In this document: positions 6,492 to 48,259 of the stretch, in pieces
Position numbering within the stretch: position 1 is the stretch's first letter
How the letters are laid out: the number at the start of each line of letters is the position of its first letter
Assembly: GCA_017504485.1 (NCBI GenBank)
Contig: JAFVRC010000022.1
Coordinates: 1 to 64,000 of the forward strand
Direction of reading: 5' to 3'
DNA length: 64,000 bases
Source: Alistipes sp.
GTDB lineage: Bacteria; Bacteroidota; Bacteroidia; Bacteroidales; Rikenellaceae
Position numbers and translations under genes: made by a program
Notes under the pieces: generated by a model
The model's input: only the letters and a program-made list of their open reading frames with translations
Told to the model about the DNA's origin: nothing
The model's database searches: none

Positions 6492-6519
6492 AGCCCATCT
6501 CTGCACTACCGTATCATCT

Positions 6520-6547
6520 CCCTGCCTTTGCGCTCGCAAAGGCAGGG
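6520..6547. terminator. strong hairpin after the fusion gene
   Basis: A 13-base inverted repeat (CCCTGCCTTTGCG / CGCAAAGGCAGGG) lies just downstream of the stop at 6491, without a T-tract. The remaining 224-bp gap is A/T-rich up to the ATG at 6716. The hairpin could attenuate transcription or set a 3' end between the fusion gene and the debranching gene. I see no convincing second promoter, only a weak TAATTTTA at 6674. Confidence 0.5.
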
Positions 6548-6715
6548 TATGGTGCGAAATAGTTGCGCTTATGGCCACTCAACGTGGCCGAGATAAAAGT
6601 CACATTTTTCGTCAAAAAGGGTTGTTTTTGTAAAATTTTTCGCTTTTCGAGAACAATTTGACTAAAAATTTATTAATTTTACGGAAGCAGAAAACAAATC
6701 TATAAAAAAATAACT

Positions 6716-8704: not shown

Positions 8705-8717
8705 AAATATAGACAAG

Positions 8718-10028: not shown

Positions 10029-10061
10029 CCGAATACAAGAAAAACAAAAACACACAAAAAT

Positions 10062-32198: not shown

Positions 32199-33443
32199 TT
32201 GAAACAGATTCGTAGGGTAATACTATCGGGATTATGTGCCATAATGGCTCTGGGCGTTTCGGCTCGTGAGATCGAGCACCAGGTTATTGTGGACATACCG
32301 TTTCTCCTGGGGGGGGGAAGTACGGAGGATATACACCGCGATCTGGACTTCGTTGCCCTTGCTAATTGTATCAACGAACTCGACAAGCTCGCCAAAGACC
32401 ACTCCGCCACAATCAAGGAGATAATCTATTACAGTTCAGTCTCTCCGGAGGGCCCTCTCGAGACCAACCGTCAGCTCTGCCGCGAGCGTCTGCTCACCAC
32501 CAAGCGCATAATCGAGTCGAAACTCTCATTCCCGGACAGCATCGTAAAATACGAGAACCGCTTCGTTCCGTGGCGCGAATACCTCCTGCCGGCCGTGATG
32601 GCCAACGACTCGCTCCCGTACCGTGAGGAGATTATCGAAATCATCTCGAAGGAGCCGGGCGATGGCGAAGAGGACAATCGCCGCACAATATTAAAGCGTG
32701 CACGCGGTGGCGCACTATGGGAGGTAGTGCGCGATAACTATTTTGAGCATATGCGTAAGGGCGGCGCGCTGATTACTGTCATCCGCGTAGTCAATGAGCC
32801 TATCTGCCACACGCCAATATTCGACGATGGCATTACTCTTGTACCTGTGGAGTCCCTATCCATCGACACAACCTACGTGGAGCCTGTTGTCGAGGAGGAG
32901 AAGGAGCCGCGCCATGCAGTCTCGATAAAGACGAATGCTGCATCGTGGGCTGCGCTTATCACAAACCTTGGCTTCGAGGTTAAGCTCGCGCCGCGCTGGT
33001 CAATCGACGTGATGGGAGCTTACTCGCCATACAATATGTTCGTCGGCGACCGCAAGATTCGCGTGTTCGGCATACGGCCGGAGGTACGCTACTGGTGGGG
33101 CGAGCCGATGAAACGTGGTCACTTCCTCGGCCTGCACGGCCACACCGCAGGATTCAACCTACAAGTTGGAGACAAGTACCGCTATCAGGACCCTAACCAC
33201 GCTCTGTGGGGCGTAGGTCTCGCCTATGGCTACGCTTTGCCACTCGGCAAGAAGGAGCGTTGGGGAGTAGAATTCACCATCGGCGTAGGATATGCCCGCA
33301 TCAAGTATGACAAATATGAGGGACGCGACAACGGACAGTTCCTTGAACGTAAAACAATAAACTATTTCGGCCCGACACGCCTCGGTATCGACTTCTCGTA
33401 CCGATTCGACATTGCGGGCAAAAACAAACGGCAAAAGCGATAG
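32199..33443 (+). CDS. OmpA-like/DUF3575 outer-membrane protein of the pilus locus
   Basis: A 414-residue protein with a TTG start (no ATG is available in frame before an upstream stop at 32148) and the signal peptide MKQIRRVILSGLCAIMALGVSA. Residues about 75-110 (SSVSPEGPLETNRQLCRERL) resemble the OmpA C-terminal peptidoglycan-binding signature. The C-terminal half (from about 245: VSIKTNAASWAALITNLGFE to SYRFD) is a DUF3575 beta-barrel-like domain. DUF3575 proteins often lie in Bacteroides fimbrial loci, and here it precedes the FimB/Mfa2-like gene by 6 bases. A G9 run at 32309-32317 encodes LGGG near residue 38; a one-base change would remove the whole protein. An outer-membrane assembly or anchoring role is inferred. 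Confidence 0.82.
   Translation: MKQIRRVILSGLCAIMALGVSAREIEHQVIVDIPFLLGGGSTEDIHRDLDFVALANCINELDKLAKDHSATIKEIIYYSSVSPEGPLETNRQLCRERLLTTKRIIESKLSFPDSIVKYENRFVPWREYLLPAVMANDSLPYREEIIEIISKEPGDGEEDNRRTILKRARGGALWEVVRDNYFEHMRKGGALITVIRVVNEPICHTPIFDDGITLVPVESLSIDTTYVEPVVEEEKEPRHAVSIKTNAASWAALITNLGFEVKLAPRWSIDVMGAYSPYNMFVGDRKIRVFGIRPEVRYWWGEPMKRGHFLGLHGHTAGFNLQVGDKYRYQDPNHALWGVGLAYGYALPLGKKERWGVEFTIGVGYARIKYDKYEGRDNGQFLERKTINYFGPTRLGIDFSYRFDIAGKNKRQKR
32309..32317 (+). repeat. poly-G tract (G9) inside the DUF3575 coding sequence
   Basis: Nine G within codons 37-40. In the sequenced state the frame is open; gain or loss of one G gives a truncated protein. It lies 254 bp downstream of the G10 tract. 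Confidence 0.9.
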
Positions 33444-33449
33444 CAACAA

Positions 33450-34631
33450 GTGAGGAGATTGAAGAACATACTGCTTCTTTGGTGCCTGTCGCTTATGGCG
33501 GCGGGCTGCGATCTTACTATCCACGAGTATCCGGATAATGAGATCTCTACTCCTATTGTCAATTTCACGCTCAACCTCAACTTCGACACCGAGATGCCGC
33601 TCTATACCGTCATGGAGTTGAGCAAGAAGAGCCGCGCCGACATCTCGCCGGACGACCTCGATGTGCGCTACATCATCAACGTCTATCGCAACACCAACGC
33701 ACGTCAAGAGAGCCGCGACATCATCCAGCAGCGCATCGTAACCAAAGACGATATAACGGTGCTCAACCACAGCGTCGATTTCCAACTCGACGAGGGCGAC
33801 TATATCTTCCTCGTATGGGCCGACTATGTGGATGCCGGCACTACGAACCACAAGTTCTACAACGCCGACAACTTCGAGAGCATCAGCCTCATTGCCGAGA
33901 ATAATATCTACATTCCGGCCAACACCGACTACCGCGATGCATTCCGCGGTCGCCAGACGGCTACCGTCTCGGCGCAGAACGAGGAGAATGCCGCCACTGT
34001 CGAGATGAAGCGTCCATTCGCCAAGTACCGTTTCGTGACAACCGACCTCGAGGAGTTCATCACCAAGATGATTGCGCTGAAGGCCAAGGCCGAGGCGGAG
34101 CGTCGTGCGCAGGAGGCTGCGGCACGCGGCGAGAATGGCACTGAGAACGAGGAGCCGGAGGGCACCAAAGGTGATGACACCGACGACACGAAGGTAGATA
34201 CCAAGCTCGAGGTCAACCTCGAGGACTACTACGTAATCTTCGAATATGCCGGTTGGGTGAACGTGGCCTACAACGCCTACACCGACCGCTCGGATATCTC
34301 GTTACAGGGTATGCGCTTCCGCTCGGATATCAGACGTATCAACGCCACGGATGCCGAAATCGGCTTCGACTATGTCATCGTAAATAGCAGTGAGGATAGC
34401 GAGACCGGCCGCGAGTTCATTCCGCAGGTAGAGCTCCGTCTGCACGTTTATCAGAAGAGCGAAACGCCTGACGGCGAAGATGTCGAGGTGGGCGGCTTTG
34501 CCAAGCGATTTATCGACCTTAAGCGTAGCCACCTGACCGAGGTGCGAGGCAAGTTCCTCTCGTCGCAGGCCGATGGTGCCGTAGGTATATCACCTGGATT
34601 CGACGACGAGTTCACTTACGAAATTAAATAA
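33450..34631 (+). CDS. FimB/Mfa2-family fimbrial anchor lipoprotein
   Basis: A 393-residue lipoprotein from a GTG start, MRRLKNILLLWCLSLMAAGC (lipobox AAGC). The mature part has the FimB/Mfa2 pattern: DLTIHEYPDN, VNFTLNLNFDTEMPLYTVMEL, GDYIFLVWADYVDAGT, and NIYIPANTDYRDAF. In Porphyromonas these proteins anchor the fimbria to the outer membrane and end its growth. About residues 206-252 form a charged, disordered insertion (KAKAEAERRAQEAAARGENG then acidic EEPEGTKGDDTDD), unusual for the family. It is followed 73 bases later by the first large fimbrillin. Strong context with four pilin-like genes supports the call. Confidence 0.85.
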   Translation: MRRLKNILLLWCLSLMAAGCDLTIHEYPDNEISTPIVNFTLNLNFDTEMPLYTVMELSKKSRADISPDDLDVRYIINVYRNTNARQESRDIIQQRIVTKDDITVLNHSVDFQLDEGDYIFLVWADYVDAGTTNHKFYNADNFESISLIAENNIYIPANTDYRDAFRGRQTATVSAQNEENAATVEMKRPFAKYRFVTTDLEEFITKMIALKAKAEAERRAQEAAARGENGTENEEPEGTKGDDTDDTKVDTKLEVNLEDYYVIFEYAGWVNVAYNAYTDRSDISLQGMRFRSDIRRINATDAEIGFDYVIVNSSEDSETGREFIPQVELRLHVYQKSETPDGEDVEVGGFAKRFIDLKRSHLTEVRGKFLSSQADGAVGISPGFDDEFTYEIK

Positions 34632-34704
34632 TCGTACGCGCAATATATAATATATAGGTATAGACAACTAACAAATTACAAATTAACTAATAAAAACAAG
34701 TAAC

Positions 34705-37700
34705 ATGAAAAAACTTTTCCTTATGATGACGGCTGTTGCGGCGATGCTCGCAACGTCGTGCGTGCAGGATGTTGCCGAGGATGTTCAGATCAGCGGCGCA
34801 GAGGGCGTTGTACTCTTCTCGGTTGAGGCTCCGGAGCTTGGCTCGCGTGCCGAAATCGGCGATGGTACGAAGGCTTCGCACCTCGAGTATGTTGTCTATG
34901 ATGCGCAGTGGAGCTACCTCACCGAGGGTACCGCTACATTCAATGCCGACCTTAAGGCCACTATCGAGTTGCGCCTTGTGAACAACAAGGAGTACAACTT
35001 CGCTTTCTGGGCTTCGGTCAAGGAGAACGATTACTACACCTTCGACAAGAACGCGGCTACCGTTACGGTAGATTACAGCGGCAAGGCCAACGACGAGAAC
35101 CGCGATGCATTCTTCGGTCAGCTGACGGGCCTCGTAGTTAATGGCACGATGAACGAGTCGGTGAAGCTCTATCGTCCTTTTGCGCAGGTAAACTGGGGTA
35201 CGAATGATGTTGCCGCAGCCAAGACGGCGGGCTTCGACATCTCGACGACCGGCACGGTAGTATATGAGGCAGAGGCTTACACTACCCTCAACCTGAAGAA
35301 TGGTGCGGTAGATGGCCTTCAGGCTGTTACATTCACGGCTGCCGACCTCGTGTCGAACACGGGCGACAAGGAGCAGCTCGAGACCAAGGAGCACGGCAAC
35401 TACACTTGGTTGTCGATGAACTACCTCCTCTGGACCGCAGATCAGGGTACGCTCACCTCGAACAAAATCACCATCACGGATGACAAGAATCAGCAGGTTG
35501 TCGTTAGCTACCCTAACGCCAATGTACGTCGTAACTGGCGTACAAACCTCGTGGGTTCACTCCTCACGGATCAGACCAACATCGTTGTTGAGATTCTCCC
35601 TGGTTTTGCTGATCAGTACGACGTTGAGTTGTGGGATGGTCAGGCAAAGCAGCCGGCTGTTGTTGACGGCAAATATCAGATTAACGATGCTGCCGAGCTC
35701 GCTTGGTTCTTCGGCAAGAAGATGGACAAGAGCGCAATCCTCTTGAACGACATCAACCTCGCAGGTCTAACCGTTACCCCTATCAATGGCGGTATTCCTG
35801 TATCGTCGATGTCGGAGAGTGGCCGTCAGGTATTCGACGGTAACGGCAAGACCATCTCGAACTTCATGGTTTCGACGACGGATATGAGCGGCGGTCTCTT
35901 CGCTACGCTCACCAGCGATACGGTTAAGAACCTCACTATCGACGGTGCAACGGTTGTTGTCGATGGCAATGGCGAGCAGTATGCTGCTATCGTAGCCGGT
36001 AAGGCTTACGGCCAGTGCGTATTCGAAAACGTAACGGTTAAGAACTCGAAGGTTGATGGTATCAACAAGGTTGGTGCAATCGTTGGCCACATCGAGGATG
36101 CCGAGCTCACGATTACGAACTGCACCATCGAGAACACGACGGTTGAGAACCACGAGGTGGGCACGCGTGCCGCTAACCCTAATGCAGAGGTTGGTTTGGC
36201 AGGTATGGCCGTAGGTTACATCAACGCCGATTTCAACTCGACTATCGAGGTTGCTATCAAGGGCTGTACGATGAACGTAACGAATGGCCGTGGCAACAAG
36301 GACCGCGCTAACGGTAAGATTGTCGGCGGTATTCAGGGCAATGGCAAGGTGACTATCAACGCTACGGAACTCGACGTTGAGCTCAACGAGGAGGCTAACG
36401 GCTACGAGTCGGTTTATGGCAGCCTTGTAGGTGCTGTTCGCTCGGGTGCTCCTACGCTCACCATCGAGGTTGAGGATGTTCTTGCAACGTGGCCGGCAAC
36501 CTTCGCCGAGGCTCTGAACAAGGGTGGTGTTATCGGTCTTGTTGCCGGTGAGTACGACCTTCCACGAAATATCGGTGCTGCAAACCTCACGCTCCGCGGT
36601 CTTGGCGACAAGACGGAGGTTGTCCTCAATGCAAAGCAGAGCGTAAGCTTTGGCAACAGCGCAATTATCAACTTCGAGAATGTAACCTACAAGGTACCTT
36701 ACGGCCTGTGGTATGACGAGCACCAGCACGGCTTCCTCCACTTTGCAAAGCAGTTCAATATGACCGGTTGCTTGATTGATGGTGGCCACCTCCGCCTGAA
36801 TGTCCAGGAGGGTAACATCGAGGAGTGTGAGTTCGTTGTACCGACCTCGAGCGGCTGGGACGGCTACGCTATCCACTACTATGGCACGGAGAACTCGACG
36901 CTCAACGTGAAGAAGTCGAAGTTCACGACTGCCGGCAAGGCTATCTGCATCTTCAGCGAGGGTCCAAAGGCTTACAACCTCAATGTCGAGGAGTGCGAGT
37001 TCACCTCGTCGAACCCTGCGACCGACAAGGCTGCTATTCAGATGCACTCGGAGTGGGGTATCTGGGGTAATGTGAACATCACGAAATCGACCGCTACGGG
37101 CTTCGCCGCTGTGAATGGTGGTCTGTGGAACGATGTTAATAACGGCGTAACTCCTGCCGTTCCTAACAACAAGTTCAACGTAACGGTTGATGGCGAGGTT
37201 GCACAGGTTGCCGGTCTGACGCTCGTTGCCGGCTACAAGGCTCTCGCTACGAATGCCGAGGGTGAGTACTGCCTCTTCAACACGCAGTCGATTGCCGATT
37301 GGCACGACTTTGCCCAGGCAAACCTCTACACCAAGACCCACGGTGTTACCTATAAGCTCCTGAACGATATCGACGCAAAGGGCTATGTTTGGGAGTCGAT
37401 GTGGTTGTCGGAGAGCCGTAACGGTATGGTTATCGACGGTAACAACCACACTATCTCGAACCTTGTAACCAATGGCGGACTCTTCGGTGGTACCGCTTCG
37501 GGCTACAATGGCACGGCTGCCGTGGTTAAGAATCTCACTTTTGCGAACCTCTCGACCGTAAGCGGCCACTGGAACGCAGCTATCTGGGGCGCACTCTACG
37601 GCGATATAACCCTCGAAAATGTGAAGGTTGTTGATTCGGAGCTTACGGGTAAGTGTAACGTCGGCGCATTCATCGCCGGCGCTGCGAACGAGAATTTCAA

Positions 37701-38661
37701 CAAGCACACCGTAATCTTCAAGGATTGCCAAGTGCTTAACAGCAAGCTCGTTGGCGAGGGCTACGCAAGCCAGGATCCTACGGGAGCTTCGGGCTTCATG
37801 GGCCGCGCATTCAATAATCTGTACATTGAGTTCAAGGGCACGAATGTCGTTGATGATGCCACTGTTATCACCAACGAGAACGGCCTCGTGGGTGGCCGTG
37901 TATATGGCTACACCATCTATGATAACGGCTTCAAGGGCACGGGTGCTTGCGACGGCTTCGTAAATCTGGCGGGCGTAAAATACGTCGAGACTTCAGATTT
38001 GTCGGTGCTCGCTCCGGAGGGCTCGAACACAAAGACGGTTGCTGCAGGTACGACTGTTGTTCTGACGGATGACATCAGCAACCCTGCCGGCTCGGGCGGC
38101 TACGGCGTTGCCGGCCTTACGGTAGCAGGTGGTGTGCTCGATGGCAATGGCCACACGCTGACCACAACGGGTGCTAACGGCACTTGGGATGCAGGTGTAT
38201 ATCACAGCGGTGGTACGATAAAGAACCTCACCGTTGGCGGCTCGTTCCGTGGCATCTTCACGGCCGGCTGCTCGTCGGATATCAATGTTGAGAACGTGGT
38301 TATCGACAACGTATGCTACTGCTTCAACTCGGATACGGCAAACCCTAACTACTCGGTAAACTTCAAGAACGTGGTGCTCAATGGTTGGACCAGTTTCACC
38401 TCGGGCTACAAGTCGGTGAACTTCACGGACTGCACCTTCTCGCAGGGCACGGGTAAATATAAGTACGCATACTGCCGTCCTTATCAGGCTACGACCTTCA
38501 CCAACTGCGACTTCAACGATGGTGCTACGGATACTTACGCTATCGACTCGGACCGTGGCGTTGTCCTCACCTTCGTAAACTGCCGTTACAATGGCGTTGC
38601 TCTAACGGCCGAGAACGTAGGCAACCTCGTAAGCAACGTGGCTAACGTGGTTATCAAATAA
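34705..38661 (+). CDS. fimbrillin-beta-helix fusion lipoprotein 1
   Basis: 1318 residues. Lipoprotein signal MKKLFLMMTAVAAMLATSC (Cys19); Arg48 in ELGSRAEIG sits where FimA (Arg46) and Mfa1 (Arg49) are cut by a trypsin-like protease. Residues about 20-300 are a fimbrillin-like (DUF6562-like) domain with EYNFAFWA, NDENRDAFFGQ, YRPFAQVNWG, and a closing VEILPGFADQYD. From 300 to the end it changes to a Gly/Asn/Thr-rich repetitive region with GLUG-like pieces (FDGNGKTISNF, GGLFATLTSDTVKNLTIDG) and dozens of short strands typical of a parallel beta-helix. It shares its last 190 residues' design with protein 2. Likely a surface adhesin or pilus tip subunit; the ligand is unknown. First of three similar genes in a row. 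Confidence 0.82.
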   Translation: MKKLFLMMTAVAAMLATSCVQDVAEDVQISGAEGVVLFSVEAPELGSRAEIGDGTKASHLEYVVYDAQWSYLTEGTATFNADLKATIELRLVNNKEYNFAFWASVKENDYYTFDKNAATVTVDYSGKANDENRDAFFGQLTGLVVNGTMNESVKLYRPFAQVNWGTNDVAAAKTAGFDISTTGTVVYEAEAYTTLNLKNGAVDGLQAVTFTAADLVSNTGDKEQLETKEHGNYTWLSMNYLLWTADQGTLTSNKITITDDKNQQVVVSYPNANVRRNWRTNLVGSLLTDQTNIVVEILPGFADQYDVELWDGQAKQPAVVDGKYQINDAAELAWFFGKKMDKSAILLNDINLAGLTVTPINGGIPVSSMSESGRQVFDGNGKTISNFMVSTTDMSGGLFATLTSDTVKNLTIDGATVVVDGNGEQYAAIVAGKAYGQCVFENVTVKNSKVDGINKVGAIVGHIEDAELTITNCTIENTTVENHEVGTRAANPNAEVGLAGMAVGYINADFNSTIEVAIKGCTMNVTNGRGNKDRANGKIVGGIQGNGKVTINATELDVELNEEANGYESVYGSLVGAVRSGAPTLTIEVEDVLATWPATFAEALNKGGVIGLVAGEYDLPRNIGAANLTLRGLGDKTEVVLNAKQSVSFGNSAIINFENVTYKVPYGLWYDEHQHGFLHFAKQFNMTGCLIDGGHLRLNVQEGNIEECEFVVPTSSGWDGYAIHYYGTENSTLNVKKSKFTTAGKAICIFSEGPKAYNLNVEECEFTSSNPATDKAAIQMHSEWGIWGNVNITKSTATGFAAVNGGLWNDVNNGVTPAVPNNKFNVTVDGEVAQVAGLTLVAGYKALATNAEGEYCLFNTQSIADWHDFAQANLYTKTHGVTYKLLNDIDAKGYVWESMWLSESRNGMVIDGNNHTISNLVTNGGLFGGTASGYNGTAAVVKNLTFANLSTVSGHWNAAIWGALYGDITLENVKVVDSELTGKCNVGAFIAGAANENFNKHTVIFKDCQVLNSKLVGEGYASQDPTGASGFMGRAFNNLYIEFKGTNVVDDATVITNENGLVGGRVYGYTIYDNGFKGTGACDGFVNLAGVKYVETSDLSVLAPEGSNTKTVAAGTTVVLTDDISNPAGSGGYGVAGLTVAGGVLDGNGHTLTTTGANGTWDAGVYHSGGTIKNLTVGGSFRGIFTAGCSSDINVENVVIDNVCYCFNSDTANPNYSVNFKNVVLNGWTSFTSGYKSVNFTDCTFSQGTGKYKYAYCRPYQATTFTNCDFNDGATDTYAIDSDRGVVLTFVNCRYNGVALTAENVGNLVSNVANVVIK
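35081..35214 (+). repeat. near-identical paralog block in fimbrillin gene 1
   Basis: About 134 bp coding for the GKANDENRDAFFGQ...YRPFAQVNWGTNDVA stretch. It differs at only a few bases from 39081-39215 and 42484-42617 in the next two genes. Confidence 0.85.
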
Positions 38662-38705
38662 GTTACTGCAAACATAATTAACCAATTAATTAATATCTAC
38701 ACGCA

Positions 38706-41700
38706 ATGAAAAAGTTTTATCTTCTGCTTACGGCAATCGCTGCATTGTTCGTAACGTCGTGCGCCAACGAGCCTTTGGCTGACGACATTCAGGTAAGCGG
38801 TGCCGAGGGTGTCGTAAACTTCTCGGTCGAGGCACCTGAGTTCGGTTCGCGTACAATGATTGGCAATGGATTGAAGGCTACGCACCTCGTCTATGCTGTT
38901 TATGACAACCAGTGGAACTACCTCACCGAGGGTACGGCTACGTTCCAGAACCTCGTGGCCAACGTATCGCTCCGCCTGGTGAACAACAAGGAGTACAACT
39001 TCGTATTCTGGGCTTCGGTCGAGGGCAACTCGTACTACACGCTCGATACGACGACGGCTACCGTGACTGTTAGCTACGCAGGCAAGGCCAACGATGAGAA
39101 CCGCGATGCGTTCTTCGGTCAGTTGAAGGGTCTCGTGGTTAATGGCACGATGAATGAGTCGGTGAAGCTCTACCGTCCTTTTGCGCAGGTAAACTGGGGT
39201 ACGAATGATGTTGCCGACGCAAAGCGAGTTGGTTTCGATATCACGAAGACTTCGGGTGCTACGGTAACCTATACGACCAAGGCCTACACCACTCTCGACC
39301 TGAAGGAGGGTGCTGTTAGCGGCTTAACGGATGTTGCTTTCGAGGCACAGACGCACGTTTCGAACAGCTATGTTGACGAGACGGGTGCCGACGAACTTCT
39401 CAAGACGAAGGCAGGCAACACCTATCACTGGGTATCGATGAACTACCTGCTCTGGTCGGCCGATCAGGGTACGCTCGATGTGAACAAGATTGTTATCGAG
39501 GATGGTAAGGGCCAGCAGGTTGAGGTTAGCTACCCTAACGCCAATGTACGTCGTAATTGGCGCACGAACCTCGTTGGTGCGCTCCTTACGGATCAGGCCA
39601 ACATCACGGTTGAGATTGTTCCGGGCTTCGACGATCAGTACGATGTAGAGGTTGAGGAGTATGTTTCGACTGCCATTACTACGACTGCACAGCTCAAGGA
39701 TGCTATCAACAACGCTACTGCTCCACTCGTTATCACGCTCGGCGAGCAGACGCGTGCTGCGTCGGACCTCGTATTCGAGTTCGACGAGATTGAGATTCCT
39801 TCGGGCAAGGATATCACCATCGTTGCCGGTGAGGGTGTAAATGCGACGCTCAACGGTCAGTTCTTCGTTACAGGCCGCCTCCAGATTGAGGGTGTGACGC
39901 TCTCGAACGAGAAGGCTACGACCGAGGGTATCTCGAAGAAGGGTGGCAACGCTATCTACGTTCAGACGGAGGGTTATCTGGCTGTTCGCAACTCGACCTT
40001 CGAGGTTGTGAAGGCTACGGGTATCACTTCGTGGTGGTCGACCGGCAAGGGTACGAATGTCGTCGTTGAGAACTGCGTGTTCAACTGCCACGGCAACCGC
40101 CCATTGCAGATTGAGAGCAACGCTACGATTACGGGCTGTACGTTCAACGACCCTTATCGCTACGCCGCACAGCTCACTTGCAGCAACGCAATCGTTAATT
40201 TCCACAATAATACGCTCACGCAGAGCACCACATCGGGCAAGCCGACTTACGGTTTGCAGCTCACGAGCGACTATGGCAACTCGAACCTCGTAATCAATGG
40301 CTCGGGCAACACCATCGAGGGTAAGGATGCTACCGATGCTCTCTACGTTTATGAGACGGGTACGGGCACGAGCAACGGCTTCGTTGACCTTGCAACCATC
40401 GAGTTCAACCTCGAGGACGGCAAGCTCTATCAGCTCGACGGCGACTCGCTCTCGCCTTGTATCGCTTCGGTTGAGGACTTGCAGAAGCTCGCCGAGGAGG
40501 TAAACGCCGGTAATAACTACAAAGGTAAGACCGTGGTATTGGTTGCCGACCTCGACCTCGCAGGCATCAGCAACTGGACTCCAATCGGTATCGGTTCGGC
40601 TCACTTCCAAGGCTCGTTTGATGGTGCTAACCACACGATTAAGAACCTCAAGATTGATGCGACGAGTGCTTATGTCGGTCTGTTCGGTTACGCCCGTATC
40701 GGCGTGATTAAGAACCTCACCATCGAGAACGCTGACGTGAAGGGTACTTCGTTTGCAGCAGCTCTCTGCGGTATGGCCGAGACTGCAAGCTTCGAGAACA
40801 TCACCCTCAAGGGTGGTATCTACGTCGAGGGTACAGGTCAGGACATCGGTGCCTTGACGGGTTACACCTATGGTAAGATTACCGATGTGACGGTAGATGC
40901 CGACTATGGCAGCTACGTTAAGGGTGCTTCGTACTTTGGTGGCGTTGTAGGCTACGCAGGCGAGGGCAGCACAGTCTTCACGCGCGTTAAGTCGAACATC
41001 AACGTCTTCGGTAAGACTTATATGGTTGGCGGTATTGTAGGTCTGGCCCAGTATGGCGTTACGTTCACCGACTGCGAGTGCAGCGGCGATGTATCGCTCC
41101 TCGAGGGTGATCCTGCTAGTGCGAACAGATGGATGCGTATTGGCGGTATCGCCGGCTCGTGGATGGAGAACAATACGTATGCCGTAACGCTCACGAACTG
41201 CTCTTACACGGGTAAGCTCTTCAGCCAGAAGACCGATGGTACTGTAGCTACGAAGTTCGACTACGACGGCTTGGTAGGCCGTGGCTATAATGCTGACGGC
41301 ACGGGCAAGCTCATCATCGATGGCAAGGCTGCCTACAACTGCACCTTCATTACCAGCGCACCTACGACGGTTGATACGGCTCTGGTAAATGGTGGCGACG
41401 TTGTTCTCTCGGGCGATGTAGCCGTAGATACAGAGAGCACTACGGGTAACAGCGGCTATGGCAAGACGGGTGTAGCAGTTAAGGAGGGTGAGCTCGACCT
41501 TAACGGCAACACGCTCTCGGTTTCGAACAGCGCGTGGGGCACTTGGGACTGCGTGGTTACCACGACGGGTGGTACCATCAAGAACGGTACGATTAAGGGT
41601 GCTATGCGCGGTATCTTTATGGGCAGCGCAACGGCCGATGTATATATCGACAATATCGTGCTGGAGGATGTTGTCTACACCTTCAACTCGGACGGTGGCA

Positions 41701-42002
41701 GCAAGGAGTATGGCGTATATATCAGCAATACGACGCTCAACGGCTGGACGAGCTTCTCGAATGTGCACAAGGAGGTTGTCTTCACCTCGTGCAAGTTCGG
41801 CAAGGGTAGCGGCTATGCATTCTGCCGCCCTTATCAGCCAACCGTATTCAAGAACTGCGAGTTCGCCGAGGGCTTCCAGCTTGACGGCGCACAGGCCAAG
41901 GGTCACGTCTTCGAGAACTGTACGCTGGGTGGCGTAGCTCTGACAAGCGAGAATATCGCTACGTTGGTATATACGGGTGCTGCAGATGTTATCGTGAAGT
42001 AA
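38706..42002 (+). CDS. fimbrillin-beta-helix fusion lipoprotein 2
   Basis: 1098 residues, 45 bases after gene 1. Signal MKKFYLLLTAIAALFVTSC (Cys19), candidate processing Arg49 (EFGSRTMIG). The fimbrillin domain (about 20-302) is closest at DNA level to gene 3 and ends VEIVPGFDDQYD. It is followed by a beta-helix-like region of about 790 residues: a right-handed-helix style block (GNAIYVQTEGYLAVRNSTF, CVFNCHGNRPLQIESNATI), a GLUG-like block (FDGANHTIKNLKIDATSAY, VGLFGYARIGVIKNLTIEN) and a C-terminal block alike protein 1 (LDLNGNTLSVSN, YAFCRPYQPTVFKNCEF). So it looks like a mosaic of modules found in its neighbours. Role as in gene 1: surface adhesin or tip pilin, inferred. Confidence 0.82.
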   Translation: MKKFYLLLTAIAALFVTSCANEPLADDIQVSGAEGVVNFSVEAPEFGSRTMIGNGLKATHLVYAVYDNQWNYLTEGTATFQNLVANVSLRLVNNKEYNFVFWASVEGNSYYTLDTTTATVTVSYAGKANDENRDAFFGQLKGLVVNGTMNESVKLYRPFAQVNWGTNDVADAKRVGFDITKTSGATVTYTTKAYTTLDLKEGAVSGLTDVAFEAQTHVSNSYVDETGADELLKTKAGNTYHWVSMNYLLWSADQGTLDVNKIVIEDGKGQQVEVSYPNANVRRNWRTNLVGALLTDQANITVEIVPGFDDQYDVEVEEYVSTAITTTAQLKDAINNATAPLVITLGEQTRAASDLVFEFDEIEIPSGKDITIVAGEGVNATLNGQFFVTGRLQIEGVTLSNEKATTEGISKKGGNAIYVQTEGYLAVRNSTFEVVKATGITSWWSTGKGTNVVVENCVFNCHGNRPLQIESNATITGCTFNDPYRYAAQLTCSNAIVNFHNNTLTQSTTSGKPTYGLQLTSDYGNSNLVINGSGNTIEGKDATDALYVYETGTGTSNGFVDLATIEFNLEDGKLYQLDGDSLSPCIASVEDLQKLAEEVNAGNNYKGKTVVLVADLDLAGISNWTPIGIGSAHFQGSFDGANHTIKNLKIDATSAYVGLFGYARIGVIKNLTIENADVKGTSFAAALCGMAETASFENITLKGGIYVEGTGQDIGALTGYTYGKITDVTVDADYGSYVKGASYFGGVVGYAGEGSTVFTRVKSNINVFGKTYMVGGIVGLAQYGVTFTDCECSGDVSLLEGDPASANRWMRIGGIAGSWMENNTYAVTLTNCSYTGKLFSQKTDGTVATKFDYDGLVGRGYNADGTGKLIIDGKAAYNCTFITSAPTTVDTALVNGGDVVLSGDVAVDTESTTGNSGYGKTGVAVKEGELDLNGNTLSVSNSAWGTWDCVVTTTGGTIKNGTIKGAMRGIFMGSATADVYIDNIVLEDVVYTFNSDGGSKEYGVYISNTTLNGWTSFSNVHKEVVFTSCKFGKGSGYAFCRPYQPTVFKNCEFAEGFQLDGAQAKGHVFENCTLGGVALTSENIATLVYTGAADVIVK
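38958..39214 (+). repeat. near-identical paralog block in fimbrillin gene 2
   Basis: A 257-bp block that matches 42361-42617 in gene 3 with only scattered differences, mostly silent. Such blocks can recombine or undergo gene conversion. Confidence 0.85.
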
Positions 42003-42017
42003 CAAGACGACAATTCA

Positions 42018-42047
42018 GGGATTGGGCCTTTGATCGGGCCCTATCCC
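42018..42047 (+). terminator. hairpin between fimbrillin genes 2 and 3
   Basis: GGGATTGGGCC / GGGCCCTATCCC pair with one mismatch around an 8-base loop. There is no T-tract, so it may lower transcription into gene 3 or protect a 3' end rather than end all transcripts. Confidence 0.55.
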
Positions 42048-42108
42048 ACAAAGACAAGTAACACACAAAACAATTAAAACAAATTTAACAACTTAAAAAA
42101 CTAGCGCT

Positions 42109-45100
42109 ATGAAAAAAGTAATTTTGATGCTTACGGCGGTTGTGGCAATGCTCGCAACGTCGTGTGTGCAGGATGTTACCGAGGACGTACAGGTGACGGG
42201 TGCTGAGGGCGTGGTTAATTTCACGGTTCAGGCTCCGGAGCTTGGTTCGCGTACATTGATTGGCAACGGCCAGAAGGCCGAGAAGCTCGTCTATGCGGTC
42301 TATGATGCACAGTGGGTTTACCTGACAGAGGGTACGGCGGATTTCGACGATCAGTTGAAGGCCAACGTATCGCTCCGCCTTGTGAACAACAAGGAGTACA
42401 ACTTCGTATTCTGGGCTTCGGTCGAGGGCAACTCGTACTACACGCTCGATACGACGACGGCCGAGGTGACTGTTAGCTACGCAGGCAAGGCCAACGACGA
42501 GAACCGCGATGCATTCTTCGGTCAGTTGACGGGCCTCGTGGTTAATGGCACGATGAATGAGTCGGTGAAGCTCTATCGTCCTTTTGCGCAGGTAAACTGG
42601 GGTACGAATGATGTTGCGGAGGCCAAGACGGGCGGCTTTGACGTAACGAAGGGCGCAGGTGCTACGGTCGTTTATGAGACCGAGGCCTACACGAAGCTCT
42701 CGTTGAAGGATGGCTCGGTAGATGGTCTGACGGCAGTAACCTTCACGGCCGAGGATCTCGTTTCGAACACATACGTTGACGAGAACGGCGCAGATGAGCT
42801 CCTCGTGACGAAGGCCAGTGGCATATACACTTGGGTTGCGATGAACTACATCCTCTGGACTGCCGACCGCGGTACGCTCACGTCGAACAAGATTACCGTG
42901 ACAGACGGTGACGGCGAGACGGTTGTCGTTAACTACCCTAACGCCAACGTACAGCGTAACTGGCGCACCAACCTTGTCGGTTCGCTCCTCACGGATCAGA
43001 CCAACATCGTTGTTGAGATCCTCCCTGGCTTCGATGGCGAGTACTCGAATGAGGCTTTCCTTGCATGGGCTACCCAGAATGGCGGCTCGTTCAAGCTCCT
43101 TGGCGACCTCGCTGTTACGAGCAACCCTCAGGGCTTCACCGTAGATAAGGATCTCAATATCGATCTCAACGGCCACACGCTGACCCTCCCTAACACGACC
43201 GAGGGTGCTCGTGCTCGCCTCTTCACGGTTACGGGTAACGCAAATCTCACCATTACCAATGGCTCGATTGTTATCGAGAGCACGAATGGTATGGTAGATG
43301 GCACCAACGCTTCGACCGGTGGCTCGTCGGTTGTATATTCGGAGTCCACGGGTAAGGTTACACTTGAGGATGTAAACCTTACGGGCAGCCAGCGTGGTGG
43401 TCACCGTGTTATTGACCTCTTTGCCGGTGAGGCCGAGGTTACCGACTGTAATATCGACGTAAACTACGGTGCCGGTGTTGTTGTAGGTGAGAATTCGAAG
43501 GGTACGATCAACAACTCGAACATTACCGTAAATGGTATGTACAGCCAAGTTTGGAACTCCGTATGCTTCGGTGTATGGGGCGGTGGTGAGCTTACCATCA
43601 ATGGCGGTAACTACACACTGAACAACAACGACACCTATGCCACAGGCGCATCGCACGGCGGTTGGGTTGGTATCATTATGAACTCGGGTGGTACTATCAC
43701 CATCAACGACGGAGCTTTTGAGAATGTTCCTGCCGCAGGCTTTATGCCGCAGTATGAGCGTGCTGTTCTCCACAGCGAGGCTGCGAGTGGTTCGATTGCA
43801 ACCTATAACATTATCGGTGGCAAGTATAATCCACAGGAGGATTTGATTATCGACGGTTACGATGACGGTGTTGGCAAGCGTTATACCAATATTGCAGGTA
43901 ATGGCACTATTGCCGACTCGGACAATGATGGCTGGTATACGATTGAGGATAACAAGGGTTATGTAGTAAATGGTACGGAGTACCTCGTTTCGACGGGTGC
44001 AGGTCTTGCAGCTGCCGTTACGGATGCTCCTGCAACGGCTACCATGAAGCTTACGGCTGACGTGGACTTGACGGGTGTTGCCTACACGCCGCGCTCGTTC
44101 TCGAAGCTCGTCTTCGACGGTCAGGGCCACACTATCAGTGGTGTTGTGGTTGAGAATGCCAATCAGGCAGCTCTCTTCGGCAAGACGTGGGACTTCGACA
44201 TCAAGGACGTTACGCTCGCCAACTCGACCTTCGTAGGTCAGAATATCGACGGTGAGGATGCTGCTGCTGCATTTGTCGGCTTCTATCAGTCATTCTCCGG
44301 CGCATCTTGCAAGCTCACGAACTGCCATGTCGAGGGCTGTACTATCGGCTCGGCCAAGTATGTCGGTGGTCTTGTAGCCTACAAGAACGGCACCAGCTCG
44401 ACTTTGACCTTCGAGAACTGCTCGGTTAAGGGCTCGACCATCGTGTCGCAGTACACCGAGGATGGCGGTGCTTCGTACAAGGGCCACGCCGGCGGTTTGG
44501 TAGGTCTTGTTGATACGGCCTCCATCAGCGGCTGTGTAGTTGAGGGCAACACGTTCAACGTGGCCGGCCCACGCTGCGGTCTCTTCATCGGCTCGGCACA
44601 GGCTAACTCGCCGGTGTCGGGTGAGGCTACGGGCAACACGGGCCTCACGCAGCTCTGCGGTGCTATCAACAATATTACCGATTGGAGCAACGTGAATGTA
44701 GCCTACAAGGTTAAGACCGCTGCCGAGTTGCAGGCGTTCATCGCCAACACGGCTGTAGGTGAGGTTAAGAACGTCGCTCTTGCTGCCGGAACGTACAATG
44801 GTCTCTTCAACGTAAATGGCAAGAAGACCATCAATATCTCTTCGACCGAGGGTGCTGTTATCGACGGTCTGGTAAATGGTATGGATTGGGCTACGATTTC
44901 GCTCAAGGGCCTCACCTTGCAGAATACCAACGACGTGGGTACGGACATCGCCAACCGCGACGACCAGAAGGGTGCTTGCGTAGGTGCTTATGTTGCCAAC
45001 ATCACGATTGAGGAGTGTACGTTCAACCTCCTGAACAAGGGCGGTATCTATATCGACTCGGACCGCACTGATGGCTGGGCAGCAGATTGGGATGGCTACA

Positions 45101-45492
45101 ACTTGCGCGTTAAGGACTGCGTGTTCAACTGTGCAGGCAAGCGTCCTATCCAGTGCCGTCCTAACGTGCTGATTGACGGCTGTACGTTCAACGACCAGTA
45201 TCGTTACTCGGTTCAGATTCGCTTCAACCCGCAGGATGCTTCGGAGAAGGTTACCTTCACGAACAACAAGATTGTGAATCCTTGCGTATCGTCGGGCAAG
45301 GGCTTCTGCGCCGGCATCACCATCAAGACGTCGGATGAGGTTAAGGATGTAGTATTCGACATCGCAGGCAACACGTTGGAGTCGTCGCTCTTCTCGGAGC
45401 TGCTCTATGTGTATGACGATGGCAATGTGGCTAACCTCCATCTCGACACCTGCACGATTCCGTCGGACATAACCTTCGTTCCGGAGCCGTAA
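42109..45492 (+). CDS. fimbrillin-beta-helix fusion lipoprotein 3
   Basis: 1127 residues. Signal MKKVILMLTAVVAMLATSC (Cys19), candidate processing Arg48 (ELGSRTLIG), fimbrillin domain to about 302 (ending VEILPGFDGEYS). The extension begins directly with EAFLAWATQNGGSFKLLGD, and carries beta-helix pieces (DLNGHTLTLPNTTEGARARL, TITNGSIVIES, GGELTINGGNYTLNNND) and a GLUG-like part (FDGQGHTISGVVVEN). A late block (CVFNCAGKRPIQCRPNVLI, CTFNDQYRYSVQIRFN) is homologous to one in protein 2. The C-terminus differs from proteins 1 and 2. It is 106 bases after gene 2, with a hairpin in the gap and a strong terminator behind it. Surface adhesin or tip pilin, inferred. Confidence 0.82.
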   Translation: MKKVILMLTAVVAMLATSCVQDVTEDVQVTGAEGVVNFTVQAPELGSRTLIGNGQKAEKLVYAVYDAQWVYLTEGTADFDDQLKANVSLRLVNNKEYNFVFWASVEGNSYYTLDTTTAEVTVSYAGKANDENRDAFFGQLTGLVVNGTMNESVKLYRPFAQVNWGTNDVAEAKTGGFDVTKGAGATVVYETEAYTKLSLKDGSVDGLTAVTFTAEDLVSNTYVDENGADELLVTKASGIYTWVAMNYILWTADRGTLTSNKITVTDGDGETVVVNYPNANVQRNWRTNLVGSLLTDQTNIVVEILPGFDGEYSNEAFLAWATQNGGSFKLLGDLAVTSNPQGFTVDKDLNIDLNGHTLTLPNTTEGARARLFTVTGNANLTITNGSIVIESTNGMVDGTNASTGGSSVVYSESTGKVTLEDVNLTGSQRGGHRVIDLFAGEAEVTDCNIDVNYGAGVVVGENSKGTINNSNITVNGMYSQVWNSVCFGVWGGGELTINGGNYTLNNNDTYATGASHGGWVGIIMNSGGTITINDGAFENVPAAGFMPQYERAVLHSEAASGSIATYNIIGGKYNPQEDLIIDGYDDGVGKRYTNIAGNGTIADSDNDGWYTIEDNKGYVVNGTEYLVSTGAGLAAAVTDAPATATMKLTADVDLTGVAYTPRSFSKLVFDGQGHTISGVVVENANQAALFGKTWDFDIKDVTLANSTFVGQNIDGEDAAAAFVGFYQSFSGASCKLTNCHVEGCTIGSAKYVGGLVAYKNGTSSTLTFENCSVKGSTIVSQYTEDGGASYKGHAGGLVGLVDTASISGCVVEGNTFNVAGPRCGLFIGSAQANSPVSGEATGNTGLTQLCGAINNITDWSNVNVAYKVKTAAELQAFIANTAVGEVKNVALAAGTYNGLFNVNGKKTINISSTEGAVIDGLVNGMDWATISLKGLTLQNTNDVGTDIANRDDQKGACVGAYVANITIEECTFNLLNKGGIYIDSDRTDGWAADWDGYNLRVKDCVFNCAGKRPIQCRPNVLIDGCTFNDQYRYSVQIRFNPQDASEKVTFTNNKIVNPCVSSGKGFCAGITIKTSDEVKDVVFDIAGNTLESSLFSELLYVYDDGNVANLHLDTCTIPSDITFVPEP
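42361..42617 (+). repeat. near-identical paralog block in fimbrillin gene 3
   Basis: Partner of 38958-39214: same length, coding for ANVSLRLVNNKEYNFVFWAS through WGTNDVA. Confidence 0.85.
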
Positions 45493-45502
45493 ATAACAAT
45501 GC

Positions 45503-45541
45503 AACAGCGGAAATCCCACTTTGCGTGGGGTCTCCGCTGTT
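45503..45541 (+). terminator. terminator after the fimbrillin fusion genes
   Basis: An outer 9-bp stem (AACAGCGGA / TCCGCTGTT) and an inner 5-bp stem (CCCAC / GTGGG) lie 11 bases after the stop; A-rich sequence follows. It separates the big fimbrillins from the short pilin gene. Confidence 0.8.
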
Positions 45542-45600
45542 ACTCAAAAAAATTGGCGACTTGTGTTTCATTGAAAGAAAAGGGTCGTTTGTTGAATTTA

Positions 45601-45632
45601 TTTGGTCAATAGACGATAAAAGCCTACTTTCG
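45601..45632 (+). promoter_or_regulatory. promoter of the short pilin gene
   Basis: TTTG at 45601-45604, a 20-bp spacer and TACTTTCG at 45625-45632 (one mismatch). This is one of the best-spaced promoters in the window. The leader is about 57 nt. Confidence 0.7.
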
Positions 45633-45694
45633 CGCTGATTTTGTGCAATAAACAGGCAATAACAACAATTCAACATTAACCAATAAAAACTCAA

Positions 45695-46711
45695 ATGAAA
45701 AAGATTTTTACTTTGATGGCAGCTGTTGCGGCTCTCTTCGCAACTTCTTGCACGCAGGAGACCGATGTAGTGTCGGTAGATGGTGGTGAAACGCTCGTAA
45801 CCTTGACGGCCGAGGCTCCACAGTTTACTCGTGCTATCGGTGACGGTAAGACGGCAAAGAACCTCTTCTTTGCAGTGTATGACGACCAGTGGAAGTTCCT
45901 CAAGGAGGGTACTTCGACTTTCAACGACGAGCTTAAGGCTACGGTAAACCTTCGACTCGTGAACAACAAGACCTACAACTTCGTGTTCTGGGCACAGGCC
46001 GAGGGTGCAGATGCTTACTACACCATCGATTGGGACAAGGCCGCTACGGCAAATGCAGTGCCAAAGGTGGCTGTTAACTACGGCACCAAGGCTAACGACG
46101 AGAAGCGCGACGCCTTCTTCGGTCAGGAGCCAAACCTCTTGGTGAATGGTACTATTAGCGGCAAGGTGATTCCTCTCTACCGTCCTTTCGCACAAATCAA
46201 CTTCGGTGCTTCGTATGAGGAGGTTGACGAGGCAAAGATTGGCGGTTTCGACATCACGACCGGCACGAATGCCAACGTGAAGTTCGACGTAACGGCCTAC
46301 TCACAGCTCTCGTTGAAGGATGGCGCTATCCTCGATGCAGGCAGCCCTACGACCGTATCGTTCACTGCCGAGCAGCTTATGAACGACATTACGGGCACTG
46401 CTCTCGTGGCAAAGCACAAGAACACCGATCCTAACGGCCAGGAGCTCACCGAGGAGAAGAGCTACCACTGGGTATCGATGAACTATATACTCTGGACTGC
46501 TGACCGTGGTACGCTCGACACGAACACCATCACGGTAACTACCGCTGCCGGCAAGGTTGTTGAGGCCAAGGCTCCACAGGCTAACGTACAGCGCAATTGG
46601 AAGACCAACATCGTAGGTCGCCTCTTCACCGATCCGGTTGAGTTCATCGTTGAGATCAAGCCTGGATTCAACGACGAGGAGTACACGGAGACCTTCCCTG
46701 ATCGCCAGTAA
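45695..46711 (+). CDS. short fimbrillin-like lipoprotein, candidate shaft pilin
   Basis: 338 residues. Signal MKKIFTLMAAVAALFATSC (Cys19) and Arg46 (QFTRAIGDG), the same position as the FimA cleavage Arg. It shares the family landmarks TYNFVFWAQ, NDEKRDAFFGQ, YRPFAQINFG, NYILWTADRGTL and NVQRNWKTNIVGRLFTD. It ends only about 15 residues after the VEIKPGFND that marks the domain boundary in the three large paralogs, so it is the pilin domain alone. It has its own promoter and terminator and is the most diverged at DNA level. The simplest reading is an abundant stalk subunit with the larger ones as minor tips; a free surface lipoprotein is the alternative. Confidence 0.8.
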   Translation: MKKIFTLMAAVAALFATSCTQETDVVSVDGGETLVTLTAEAPQFTRAIGDGKTAKNLFFAVYDDQWKFLKEGTSTFNDELKATVNLRLVNNKTYNFVFWAQAEGADAYYTIDWDKAATANAVPKVAVNYGTKANDEKRDAFFGQEPNLLVNGTISGKVIPLYRPFAQINFGASYEEVDEAKIGGFDITTGTNANVKFDVTAYSQLSLKDGAILDAGSPTTVSFTAEQLMNDITGTALVAKHKNTDPNGQELTEEKSYHWVSMNYILWTADRGTLDTNTITVTTAAGKVVEAKAPQANVQRNWKTNIVGRLFTDPVEFIVEIKPGFNDEEYTETFPDRQ

Positions 46712-46855: not shown

Positions 46856-48259
46856 ATGAAGATTAAATCTTTGTTCCTCGCGCTCGTTACCGCCACTCTT
46901 TTGGTAACGACAGCATGCAACGACGGAAAACCTTACAAGATTATCGACGGTACGATACACTTCAAGACACCGGAGCGACCTGCCGGACAGCAAGATGTCA
47001 TCGCTCTGACGGCCGAGCCCCTTGAGACCGTGCGTGTCGGCTTTATTGGCCTCGGTATGCGCGGCCCGGGTGCCGTGAAGCTCTGGGCGCAAATTCCGAA
47101 TACCGAGATTGTGGCACTCTGCGACCTGCGACCCGAGGGAATAGAGAGAGCCCAGAAGTACCTCGACCGCTTCAATCGCCCGCGTGCGGAGGTATATACC
47201 GGCTCGATAGAGGCGTGGCGCGAGCTCTGCCAGCGCGAAGATATCGACATCGTGTATATCGCAACCGACTGGGAGAACCACGCACACATGGCTAAATATG
47301 CGATGGAGTGCGGCAAGCATGTCGCAATTGAGGTACCATCGGCAATGACACTCAACGAAATCTGGGACCTTATCAACACCTCGGAGCGCACACGCCGCCA
47401 CTGTATGCAGCTCGAGAACTGTGTCTACGACTATTTCGAGCTTACGACACTCAACATGGCGCAGCAGGGTCTTTTCGGCGAAATACTCCATGCCGAAGGT
47501 GCATATATACACTGCCTCGACAATCTTTGGGGCCGCTTCTACCAAAATTGGCGACTTCGCTACAACCGCGACCATCGCGGCGACATATACGCTACACACG
47601 GCATAGGCCCGATTTGTCAGGCCCTCAACATCCACCGCGGCGACCGTATGAAGACCCTCGTGGCGATGAATACCAAAGCGGTGCTCGGGTATGAGTATTG
47701 GGAGCAGGTGACGGGCGAGAAGTACGACGGCGAGTTCAAGAATGGCGACCAAACGACAACACTCATCAGCACCGAGAATGGCAAGGTGATGCAGATACAC
47801 CACAACGTGATGACTCCGCGCCCTTATTCGCGCGACTATGCCCTCGTAGGCACGAAGGGATATGCCACGAAGTATCCGGTACAAGGCTATCTGCTGCACG
47901 CCGAAGCACTCGGGGAGGTCGATCACGAGAACCTTAACTCGCACAAATTCCTGCCCGAGGATATCAAGGCGCAGATGATGGAGAAGTATATGCACCCTAT
48001 CACCCGTGAGGTGGGTGCCATAGCCAAGAAGGCCGGTGGCCACGGAGGTATGGACTACATAATGATTTACCGCCTCGTCTACTGCTTGCGCAACGGCCTG
48101 CCTCTCGATATGGATGTTTACGACTTGGCCGAGTGGTGCTGCCTGGCAGAGCTCGGTGCGGCATCTATCGAGAATGGCTCGAAGCCGGTCGCTGTGCCCG
48201 ACTTCACGCGCGGCAACTGGAACAAGGTCGATGGCTACCGCCACGCAATGGCCGAGTAG
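46856..48259 (+). CDS. GH109-type NAD-dependent glycosidase (Gfo/Idh/MocA fold) lipoprotein
   Basis: 467 residues. Lipoprotein signal MKIKSLFLALVTATLLVTTAC (Cys21). A Rossmann NAD site follows (VRVGFIGLGMRGPGAVKL), then ALCDLRPEGIERAQ, IVYIATDWENHAHMA and CGKHVAIEVPSAM. The C-terminal half holds HRGDIYATHGIGPICQALNI and GGHGGMDYIMIYRL, features of the GH109 family. GH109 includes alpha-N-acetylgalactosaminidases that remove the blood group A sugar through a transient NAD oxidation. Export and lipidation fit a mucin-glycan role in a gut bacterium. Family membership is fairly sure; substrate is inferred. An ordinary Gfo/Idh/MocA oxidoreductase is the alternative. It is a single gene with its own promoter and terminator. 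Confidence 0.87.
   Translation: MKIKSLFLALVTATLLVTTACNDGKPYKIIDGTIHFKTPERPAGQQDVIALTAEPLETVRVGFIGLGMRGPGAVKLWAQIPNTEIVALCDLRPEGIERAQKYLDRFNRPRAEVYTGSIEAWRELCQREDIDIVYIATDWENHAHMAKYAMECGKHVAIEVPSAMTLNEIWDLINTSERTRRHCMQLENCVYDYFELTTLNMAQQGLFGEILHAEGAYIHCLDNLWGRFYQNWRLRYNRDHRGDIYATHGIGPICQALNIHRGDRMKTLVAMNTKAVLGYEYWEQVTGEKYDGEFKNGDQTTTLISTENGKVMQIHHNVMTPRPYSRDYALVGTKGYATKYPVQGYLLHAEALGEVDHENLNSHKFLPEDIKAQMMEKYMHPITREVGAIAKKAGGHGGMDYIMIYRLVYCLRNGLPLDMDVYDLAEWCCLAELGAASIENGSKPVAVPDFTRGNWNKVDGYRHAMAE

Follow-up and report, generated by a model that had tools for sequence, protein, structure and literature searches.

FimH-type two-domain adhesins join a constant pilin-type plug to a variable binding head. 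Closer to the present case are the type V pili of Bacteroidales. In the part of PMC12632263 drawn on here, tip pilins are described that have a C-terminal binding domain and are cut by a surface protease, opening a groove, and a clostripain-family C11 protease is named as the cutter; excerpts of PMC5789003 place the cleavage of type V pilins at an arginine in this N-terminal region (Mfa1 Arg49, Mfa3 Arg43, and Mfa4 Arg54). Such proteins can be large, the portion of PMC9409006 used here giving 670, 550, and 1228 amino acids for FimD, FimE, and Mfa5 of Porphyromonas gingivalis. Here we describe a six-gene locus at positions 32199 to 46711 of a 64,000-nucleotide stretch of Alistipes sp. DNA (contig JAFVRC010000022.1; the whole stretch is called the window below). 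It encodes a DUF3575 protein, a FimB/Mfa2-like anchor, three giant lipoproteins in which a fimbrillin-like docking domain is followed by a long C-terminal part, and one short single-domain lipoprotein.

We propose, with a probability of roughly 0.65, that the giants encoded here are tip adhesins of a type V-pilus-like display system, in which a constant plug carries exchangeable heads. Large surface proteins that combine one pilus-subunit plug with different heads look like a repertoire of interchangeable tip adhesins. Under this proposal, DUF6562, to which Pfam assigns no function, gains a role that can be tested, and DUF3575 proteins are connected with type V-like anchors. It also suggests that uncultured gut bacteria could change what they bind by exchanging the heads fitted to a shared connector.

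Gene content and domains of the locus

All six genes lie on the plus strand. The first (32199..33443, TTG start) encodes a 414-amino-acid outer-membrane-type protein that matches Pfam DUF3575 (E = 3e-45) and whose N-terminal half is OmpA-like by resemblance only; an OmpA Pfam match, below the cut-off, was found only in its homologue at a classical locus, L125, described in the last section. The second (33450..34631, GTG start) encodes the anchor, a 393-amino-acid lipoprotein with a lipobox and with matches above the cut-off to both DUF6562 (E = 3.8e-65) and Mfa2 (PF08842, E = 5.3e-6). Then come giant 1 (34705..38661, 1318 amino acids), giant 2 (38706..42002, 1098 amino acids), and giant 3 (42109..45492, 1127 amino acids), all lipoproteins that combine DUF6562 with a long C-terminal part, and finally a fimbrillin-like lipoprotein of 338 amino acids (45695..46711; DUF6562 E = 2.7e-8; Arg46), a candidate stalk or adaptor subunit. 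The original prediction, made from the letters of the DNA, had named a block of an OmpA/DUF3575 protein, a FimB/Mfa2-like anchor, and four fimbrillin-like lipoproteins, and the six frames with their DUF3575, DUF6562, and Mfa2 matches bear this out.

With our own hidden Markov model (HMM), the docking domains of the giants end at residues 313 to 323. That of giant 1 (34705..35643; DUF6562 E = 3e-9) includes the signal peptide, lipobox Cys19, and Arg48; that of giant 2 (38706..39674) has lipobox Cys19 and Arg49 and matches DUF6562 at E = 2e-11, or 5.1e-13 for the domain alone; and that of giant 3 (42109..43056; E = 2e-11) has lipobox Cys19 and Arg48. The last stretch of the DUF6562 model is a VEI-PGF landmark, at which the anchor also terminates. 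It reads VEILPGFADQ, VEIVPGFDDQ, and VEILPGFDGE in the three giants and VEIKPGFNDE in the 338-amino-acid protein, which ends 13 residues beyond PGF, close to the distance of about 15 predicted. This short protein is 43-54% identical to docking domains of the window and of the metagenome-assembled genome SIG179. NCBIfam gave weak matches only for the window proteins, among them one of the 338-amino-acid protein to the FimD tip adhesin model (E = 0.011, far below the cut-off). Because a terminator-like inverted repeat (45503-45541; 17-nucleotide arms, 5-nucleotide spacer, 88%) lies between giant 3 and its gene, the latter may be transcribed separately. A search for signs of invertible promoters in six stretches of the window and of L007, a second stretch of the same genome, returned short inverted repeats only, the widest-spaced pairs having 80-87% complementarity.

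Beyond the docking domains, the C-terminal parts of giant 2 (39675..42002, 775 amino acids) and giant 3 (43057..45492, 811 amino acids) match the right-handed beta-helix family Beta_helix (PF13229) above the Pfam cut-off, at E = 9.7e-7 and, over three stretches, E = 5.8e-8. The adhesin-like part of giant 1 (35644..38661, 1005 amino acids) has sub-cut-off matches only (Pectate_lyase_5, E = 0.0015; M26_N, E = 0.011); it is homologous to that of giant 2, over 221 columns at 43% (E = 1e-45) and two shorter stretches, and a beta-helix is inferred for it on this ground. A cap module of about 170 residues near the C terminus, detected with an iterated HMM, is common to giant 1 (38113..38628) and giant 2 (41469..41966), and several other giants end in it too; a phmmer search with the giant 2 C-terminal part gave nothing. 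Of the three predicted pilin-beta-helix fusions, the bulky C-terminal part is thus present in all, and the beta-helix has profile support in giants 2 and 3 and falls below the cut-off in giant 1.

A constant docking domain and variable C-terminal parts

Among same-genus genomes, DUF6562 is present in 58 of 151, or 21 of the 61 of good quality. We took stretches from 17 genomes: the window's own (G000), 15 of these 21 (G006, G019, G039, G073, G089, and G149 lie outside the sample), and SIG179. The fusion whose search in relatives had been proposed is frequent there: by set thresholds, these stretches hold 72 fusions, 21 anchors, and 19 short forms (one fusion frame, which crosses a run of Ns, was left out of later counts, giving 71). 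In G000 itself (1.92 Mb, 82% complete), six matches to DUF6562 exceed the cut-off, and our profile adds the 338-amino-acid protein as a further full-length member of the docking family. Two extra fusions, of 1046 and 930 amino acids, lie elsewhere in G000 with no anchor beside them; since these exist and the architecture recurs in relatives, the fusions of the window are not a chance product.

C-terminal parts of the fusions range from 180 to 1069 amino acids. At E ≤ 0.01, Pfam families found in the 71 parts included GLUG (14), Beta_helix (7), M26_N (6), Pectate_lyase_5, named "adhesive" (5), LRR_8 (4), BspA-type LRR_5 (4, best E = 8.6e-103), fn3 (3), the starch-binding CBM26 (2), and others, and many parts had no Pfam match. 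The heads are thus predicted to be binding-type modules of several kinds. A beta-helix as the fused part describes the window and is too narrow for its relatives, and we dropped the idea of the beta-helix as the defining head, given the GLUG, BspA-type leucine-rich repeat, fn3, and starch-binding modules in other C-terminal parts.

Docking domains of one genome can be as much as 97% alike and yet be followed by unrelated C-terminal parts. When pairs were scored as identity times coverage, docking domains reached at least 60 in 36 of 183 within-genome pairs, and in 31 of these 36 the C-terminal parts scored below 15; between genomes (n = 2302), 26 pairs reached 60, and 16 of them had C-terminal parts below 15. 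For 40 of 66 docking domains, the best match comes from the genome itself (shuffled mean, 5.0), and a docking-domain tree clusters by genome, with 37 changes against 68.7 when shuffled. At the DNA level, the docking domains of giants 2 and 3 share a patch of about 300 alignment columns at 91-96% identity, other windows within the domain being 59-84% identical; comparable mosaics were seen with a distant copy, C14. SIG179 has 607-681 bp of identical in-domain DNA on three separate contigs, two of which diverge just past the domain while the third contig stops there. We aligned the DNA of 11 pairs, ten from the top of the ranked list plus the pair from L009 and L008, and found that in 10 of them similarity stops no more than about 25 residues from the domain end (one at a contig end); in the remaining one, a tandem pair, it runs to the gene end. 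A reverse case also occurs, in which giants of G065 and G105 score 93 in the C-terminal part and 66 in the docking domain. Recombination between plugs and heads would be the simplest reading of these patterns.

Putative N-terminal processing signals are highly conserved. All 70 fusions whose 5' end is closed (of 72) show a lipobox pattern, as do 17 of 19 short forms and 19 of 21 anchors. In an alignment of 82 of the 90 docking domains (seven short forms and one 5'-truncated fusion stayed outside), six columns are invariant, among them the lipobox Cys and one Arg (82/82 each), and the residue before this Arg is Thr or Ser in 79 of 82. The Arg lies at what we take, from sequence alone, to be the maturation position. 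Among the eight unaligned domains, it was found by eye in six, one short form has none, and one domain is cut off; at the order level, 15 of 17 members have it by column and one further member by eye, leaving one without.

Fusions and anchors occur in the same genomes, a co-occurrence that the original prediction had named as support. Frames of fusion length (at least 480 amino acids with DUF6562) are found in 19 of 22 same-genus genomes, and all 19 also have an anchor-length frame above 170 bits; among 295 genomes at the order level, DUF6562 occurs in 17 and a fusion-length frame in 14, with a high-scoring anchor-length frame in each of the 14 (the 19/19 and 14/14 were read off match tables). 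Fusions outnumber anchors, with ten to two anchors in G105 and eight to one in each of G040, G065, and G084, and 31 of the 72 lie within 10 kb of an anchor. For 17 of the 21 anchors, a DUF3575 homologue lies upstream at a distance of -12 to +35 bp; of the remaining four anchors, three stand at contig ends and one has a weak match 924 bp away. At the order level, 13 of 14 loci have a DUF3575 homologue.

Some further arrangements were noted in passing. The two extra G000 fusions adjoin a gene that by eye resembles a PiT-type phosphate transporter, and a fusion of SIG179 lies near a similar gene; these transporter-side fusions (L007, 9358-14796, in G000; L008, 3040-12772, in SIG179) hint at a conserved satellite site. 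In L008, a 936-amino-acid lipoprotein (5765-8575) with Thr-Arg-Thr near its N terminus and no Pfam match at E = 0.001 separates the transporter-like gene from the fusion. On G000 contigs 44, 11, and 13, frames of 1304, 1442, and 1400 amino acids weakly match docking-profile columns 1 to 90-100 (E = 5.6e-6 to 3.1e-5) and are perhaps more giant lipoproteins of a related kind. In G408 (L137, 3996-10841), one anchor is followed by four DUF6562-type proteins of 518-541 amino acids, one of them without the conserved Arg.

Proposed display mechanism and its alternatives

In the mechanism that we propose, a giant would be made as a lipoprotein and would then reach the cell surface. Cleavage at the conserved Arg past the first strand would release the lipid and open a groove in the fimbrillin-like domain, and this groove would be filled by a strand from a lipid-anchored partner, in a subunit order that might run to the Mfa2-like anchor directly or via a few short subunits such as the 338-amino-acid protein. 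The C-terminal part (a beta-helix here, other binding-type modules elsewhere) would project outward as a ligand-binding head. Each anchor could display several heads, from giants encoded beside it and dispersed in the genome, and recombination would keep the docking domains alike while the heads differ. A tip position or a shaftless surface display, both of which the original prediction had considered, suits a pilin-type domain with so bulky a C-terminal part.

Homology between docking domains and anchors extends along almost the entire length of both (hhalign probability 99.9%, or 99.8% without signal peptides). Of the 82 docking domains, 78 match DUF6562, and 14 match Mfa2 at E ≤ 0.1 (best, 9.6e-10). 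Through this Mfa2 link, the docking domains likely have the two-sandwich fimbrillin fold.

Several results weigh against the proposal or narrow it. The docking profile has an hhalign probability of 1.6% with classical Mfa_like_1 fimbrillins; with FimA-type pilins it reaches 95.6% with signal peptides and 16.5% without them, so that this link is weakened, coming mostly from the signal-peptide region. Against solved structures, neither the docking profile (one unrelated chain, E = 0.14) nor the anchor profile (nothing) found a credible match; the Mfa_like_1 and FimA-type profiles, run as positive controls, do recover solved pilins, and the 338-amino-acid protein matched 3r4r weakly (E = 0.4). 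An uncut anchor fits only loosely, because 7 of the 20 anchors aligned (of 21, one identical copy being left out) carry Arg and 1 carries Lys at the presumed cleavage column. A C11 protease of the clostripain family is present in 24 of 25 carriers and also in 16 of 16 non-carriers; the enzyme is available in both groups, and we dropped its presence as evidence. On the stretches taken, some of which stop at contig ends, no anchor lies within 10 kb of 41 of the 72 fusions. The C-terminal parts cluster by genome as well, less strongly than the docking domains, with the best match in the same genome for 16 of 65 (shuffled mean, 4.8). Homogenization of the docking domains is only partial in the tree: the sister genomes G065/G105 and G040/G084 share orthologous domains, for which reason we regard the exchange as partial and abandoned full concerted evolution.

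Minimal loci in other genera bear on whether a shaft is needed. DUF3575, an anchor, and one fusion of 624-848 amino acids make up the locus in G316, G409, G442, G171, G339, G263, G289, and G439, eight genomes that span seven genera, none of them the window's. G409 and G442 are single-contig genomes; the G409 anchor has one in-frame stop, and the G439 anchor, hidden in the locus table by an overlap filter, was counted from the order-level search. None of the eight loci has a short pilin, and elsewhere in these genomes the docking profile gave partial matches only, some of them in FimA-type proteins; one in G439 (columns 59-269, 312-amino-acid frame, E = 1.9e-6) could be a distant short form. 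A shaft borrowed from Mfa_like_1 or FimA-type proteins, the only two families searched, is possible: across nine such genomes (G385 added), Mfa_like_1 matches above the cut-off occur in six and FimA-type matches in seven, while G171 has no FimA match and a single sub-cut-off Mfa_like_1 match, within the frame of its Mfa2-type protein. All eight fusions have the Arg (in G171 one column off in the alignment), which suggests that they shed their lipid and need the anchor, and it is on this that a shaftless reading is based. Perhaps, then, adhesins are shown on the anchor without a shaft, and the three-gene loci are small enough for a direct test. A fuller version, tentative and to our minds rather doubtful, is a display system that derives from a pilus and has lost the pilus itself: an adhesin, cleaved and plugged by its fimbrillin domain, would pair with the anchor by strand exchange, with DUF3575 as outer-membrane partner, and in the window's genus the plug would have become a universal connector, copied by recombination onto unrelated heads genome-wide, so that a strain would have up to ten exchangeable adhesins per one or two anchors.

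The giants might instead polymerize through their fimbrillin domains into a bottle-brush filament with a C-terminal rod on each subunit. Their docking domains are closely related to the 338-amino-acid protein, both keep the Arg, and several giants stand in tandem, as such a filament would have it. However, the last docking strand of the giants continues straight into the next domain, and eight loci have a single giant. The excerpts of PMC5789003 point the same way, the C-terminal tail mattering for polymerization in the shaft protein Mfa1 and not in the tip protein Mfa3. We consider such a filament unlikely.

Similarly improbable is that the giants are ordinary surface lipoproteins that retain their lipid, the anchor and the Arg being irrelevant to them. 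The lipobox present in every fusion frame with a closed 5' end, the 41 fusions with no anchor within 10 kb on the stretches taken, and the two G000 fusions that stand alone would all fit; an Arg that is invariant at the maturation position, with Thr or Ser nearly always before it, and an anchor in every genome with a fusion-length frame in the genus and order searches would not be expected. Right-handed beta-helices include polysaccharide lyases, and one C-terminal part has a sub-cut-off Glyco_hydro_49 match, so that the C-terminal parts might be glycan-degrading enzymes of pectate-lyase type on a pilin stub rather than adhesins. But no window protein matches a catalytic family above the Pfam cut-off, the commoner matches among the C-terminal parts are GLUG, Beta_helix, the "adhesive" Pectate_lyase_5, leucine-rich repeats, fn3, and CBM26, and M26_N, with its six members, is by name the N-terminal non-peptidase part. 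Of the readings set out here, enzyme heads strike us as the least credible.

The genes around the locus were annotated in passing. On the same strand, 3' of the cluster, a gene at 46856-48259 has a GH109 C-terminal domain (PF21252) and a GFO/IDH/MocA fold, which we take to bring mucin or blood-group sugars to mind. On the minus strand, a lipoprotein at 49284-50393 is by eye BNR/sialidase-like, and a 608-amino-acid protein at 60391-62217 has PEGA domains and a sub-cut-off Lcl_C match. A glycogen-type metabolism cluster at 2247-11267 comprises a 1414-amino-acid glycogen synthase/phosphorylase fusion, a debranching enzyme, a glycosyltransferase, and a GH57 protein.

Comparison with known systems

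The original prediction knew of no described pilus with such subunits. This part did not hold: large subunits such as FimD, FimE, and Mfa5 of P. gingivalis are described, and long Mfa_like_1 frames are common in relatives. We likewise dropped the claim that this is a pilus of a wholly new category, since binding domains at the C terminus of tip pilins are already on record in the part of PMC12632263 cited above. Our searches of open-licence papers turned up neither the DUF6562 family nor multiple giants as large as these for one anchor, nor exchange between plug and head, nor loci without a stalk.

The classical Mfa_like_1 family is present in all 20 relatives searched, with many matches inside frames longer than 500 amino acids, and fimbrillin fusions thus extend beyond DUF6562. 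L125, a classical locus of the same genome (G000 contig 3, 3292-15699), has the same gene order as the window: a DUF3575/OmpA protein, a DUF5119 anchor-like lipoprotein, three Mfa_like_1 proteins (318, 334, and 331 amino acids), and giants of 1122 and 1223 amino acids. Unlike the window, it has other protein families in the same places, and neither of its giants reaches the cut-off of a Pfam family. For the first, one search gave Mfa_like_1 below the cut-off (E = 1.5e-4), a match that a second Pfam scan did not list.

In contrast to FimH, the proteins described here bear a much larger head, placed at the C terminus, and take another secretion route. Mfa5 of P. gingivalis, as the portion of PMC8313007 used here describes it, is likewise a very large tip protein with one variable and one conserved half. 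It exits, however, by the type IX system with a C-terminal domain (CTD), and its variable half is N-terminal; here the N-terminal lipoprotein domain is constant and the C-terminal part variable, and the CTD model matched none of the window proteins.

A close likeness is to the type V tip pilins of Bacteroidales (FimC-E, Mfa3-5, and the Bacteroides tip pilins), which in the passages of PMC12632263 and PMC5789003 used here share the lipoprotein precursor, the Arg behind the first strand, the anchor gene, and an extra C-terminal domain, here a putative binding one. The proteins described here differ from them in a docking domain of the DUF6562 family, for which profile comparison detected no similarity to Mfa_like_1, in C-terminal parts of such varied length and many dispersed copies per anchor, and in a docking domain common to unrelated heads, with some loci lacking a short pilin. 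In kind, the locus of the window fits the described type V tip pilins.

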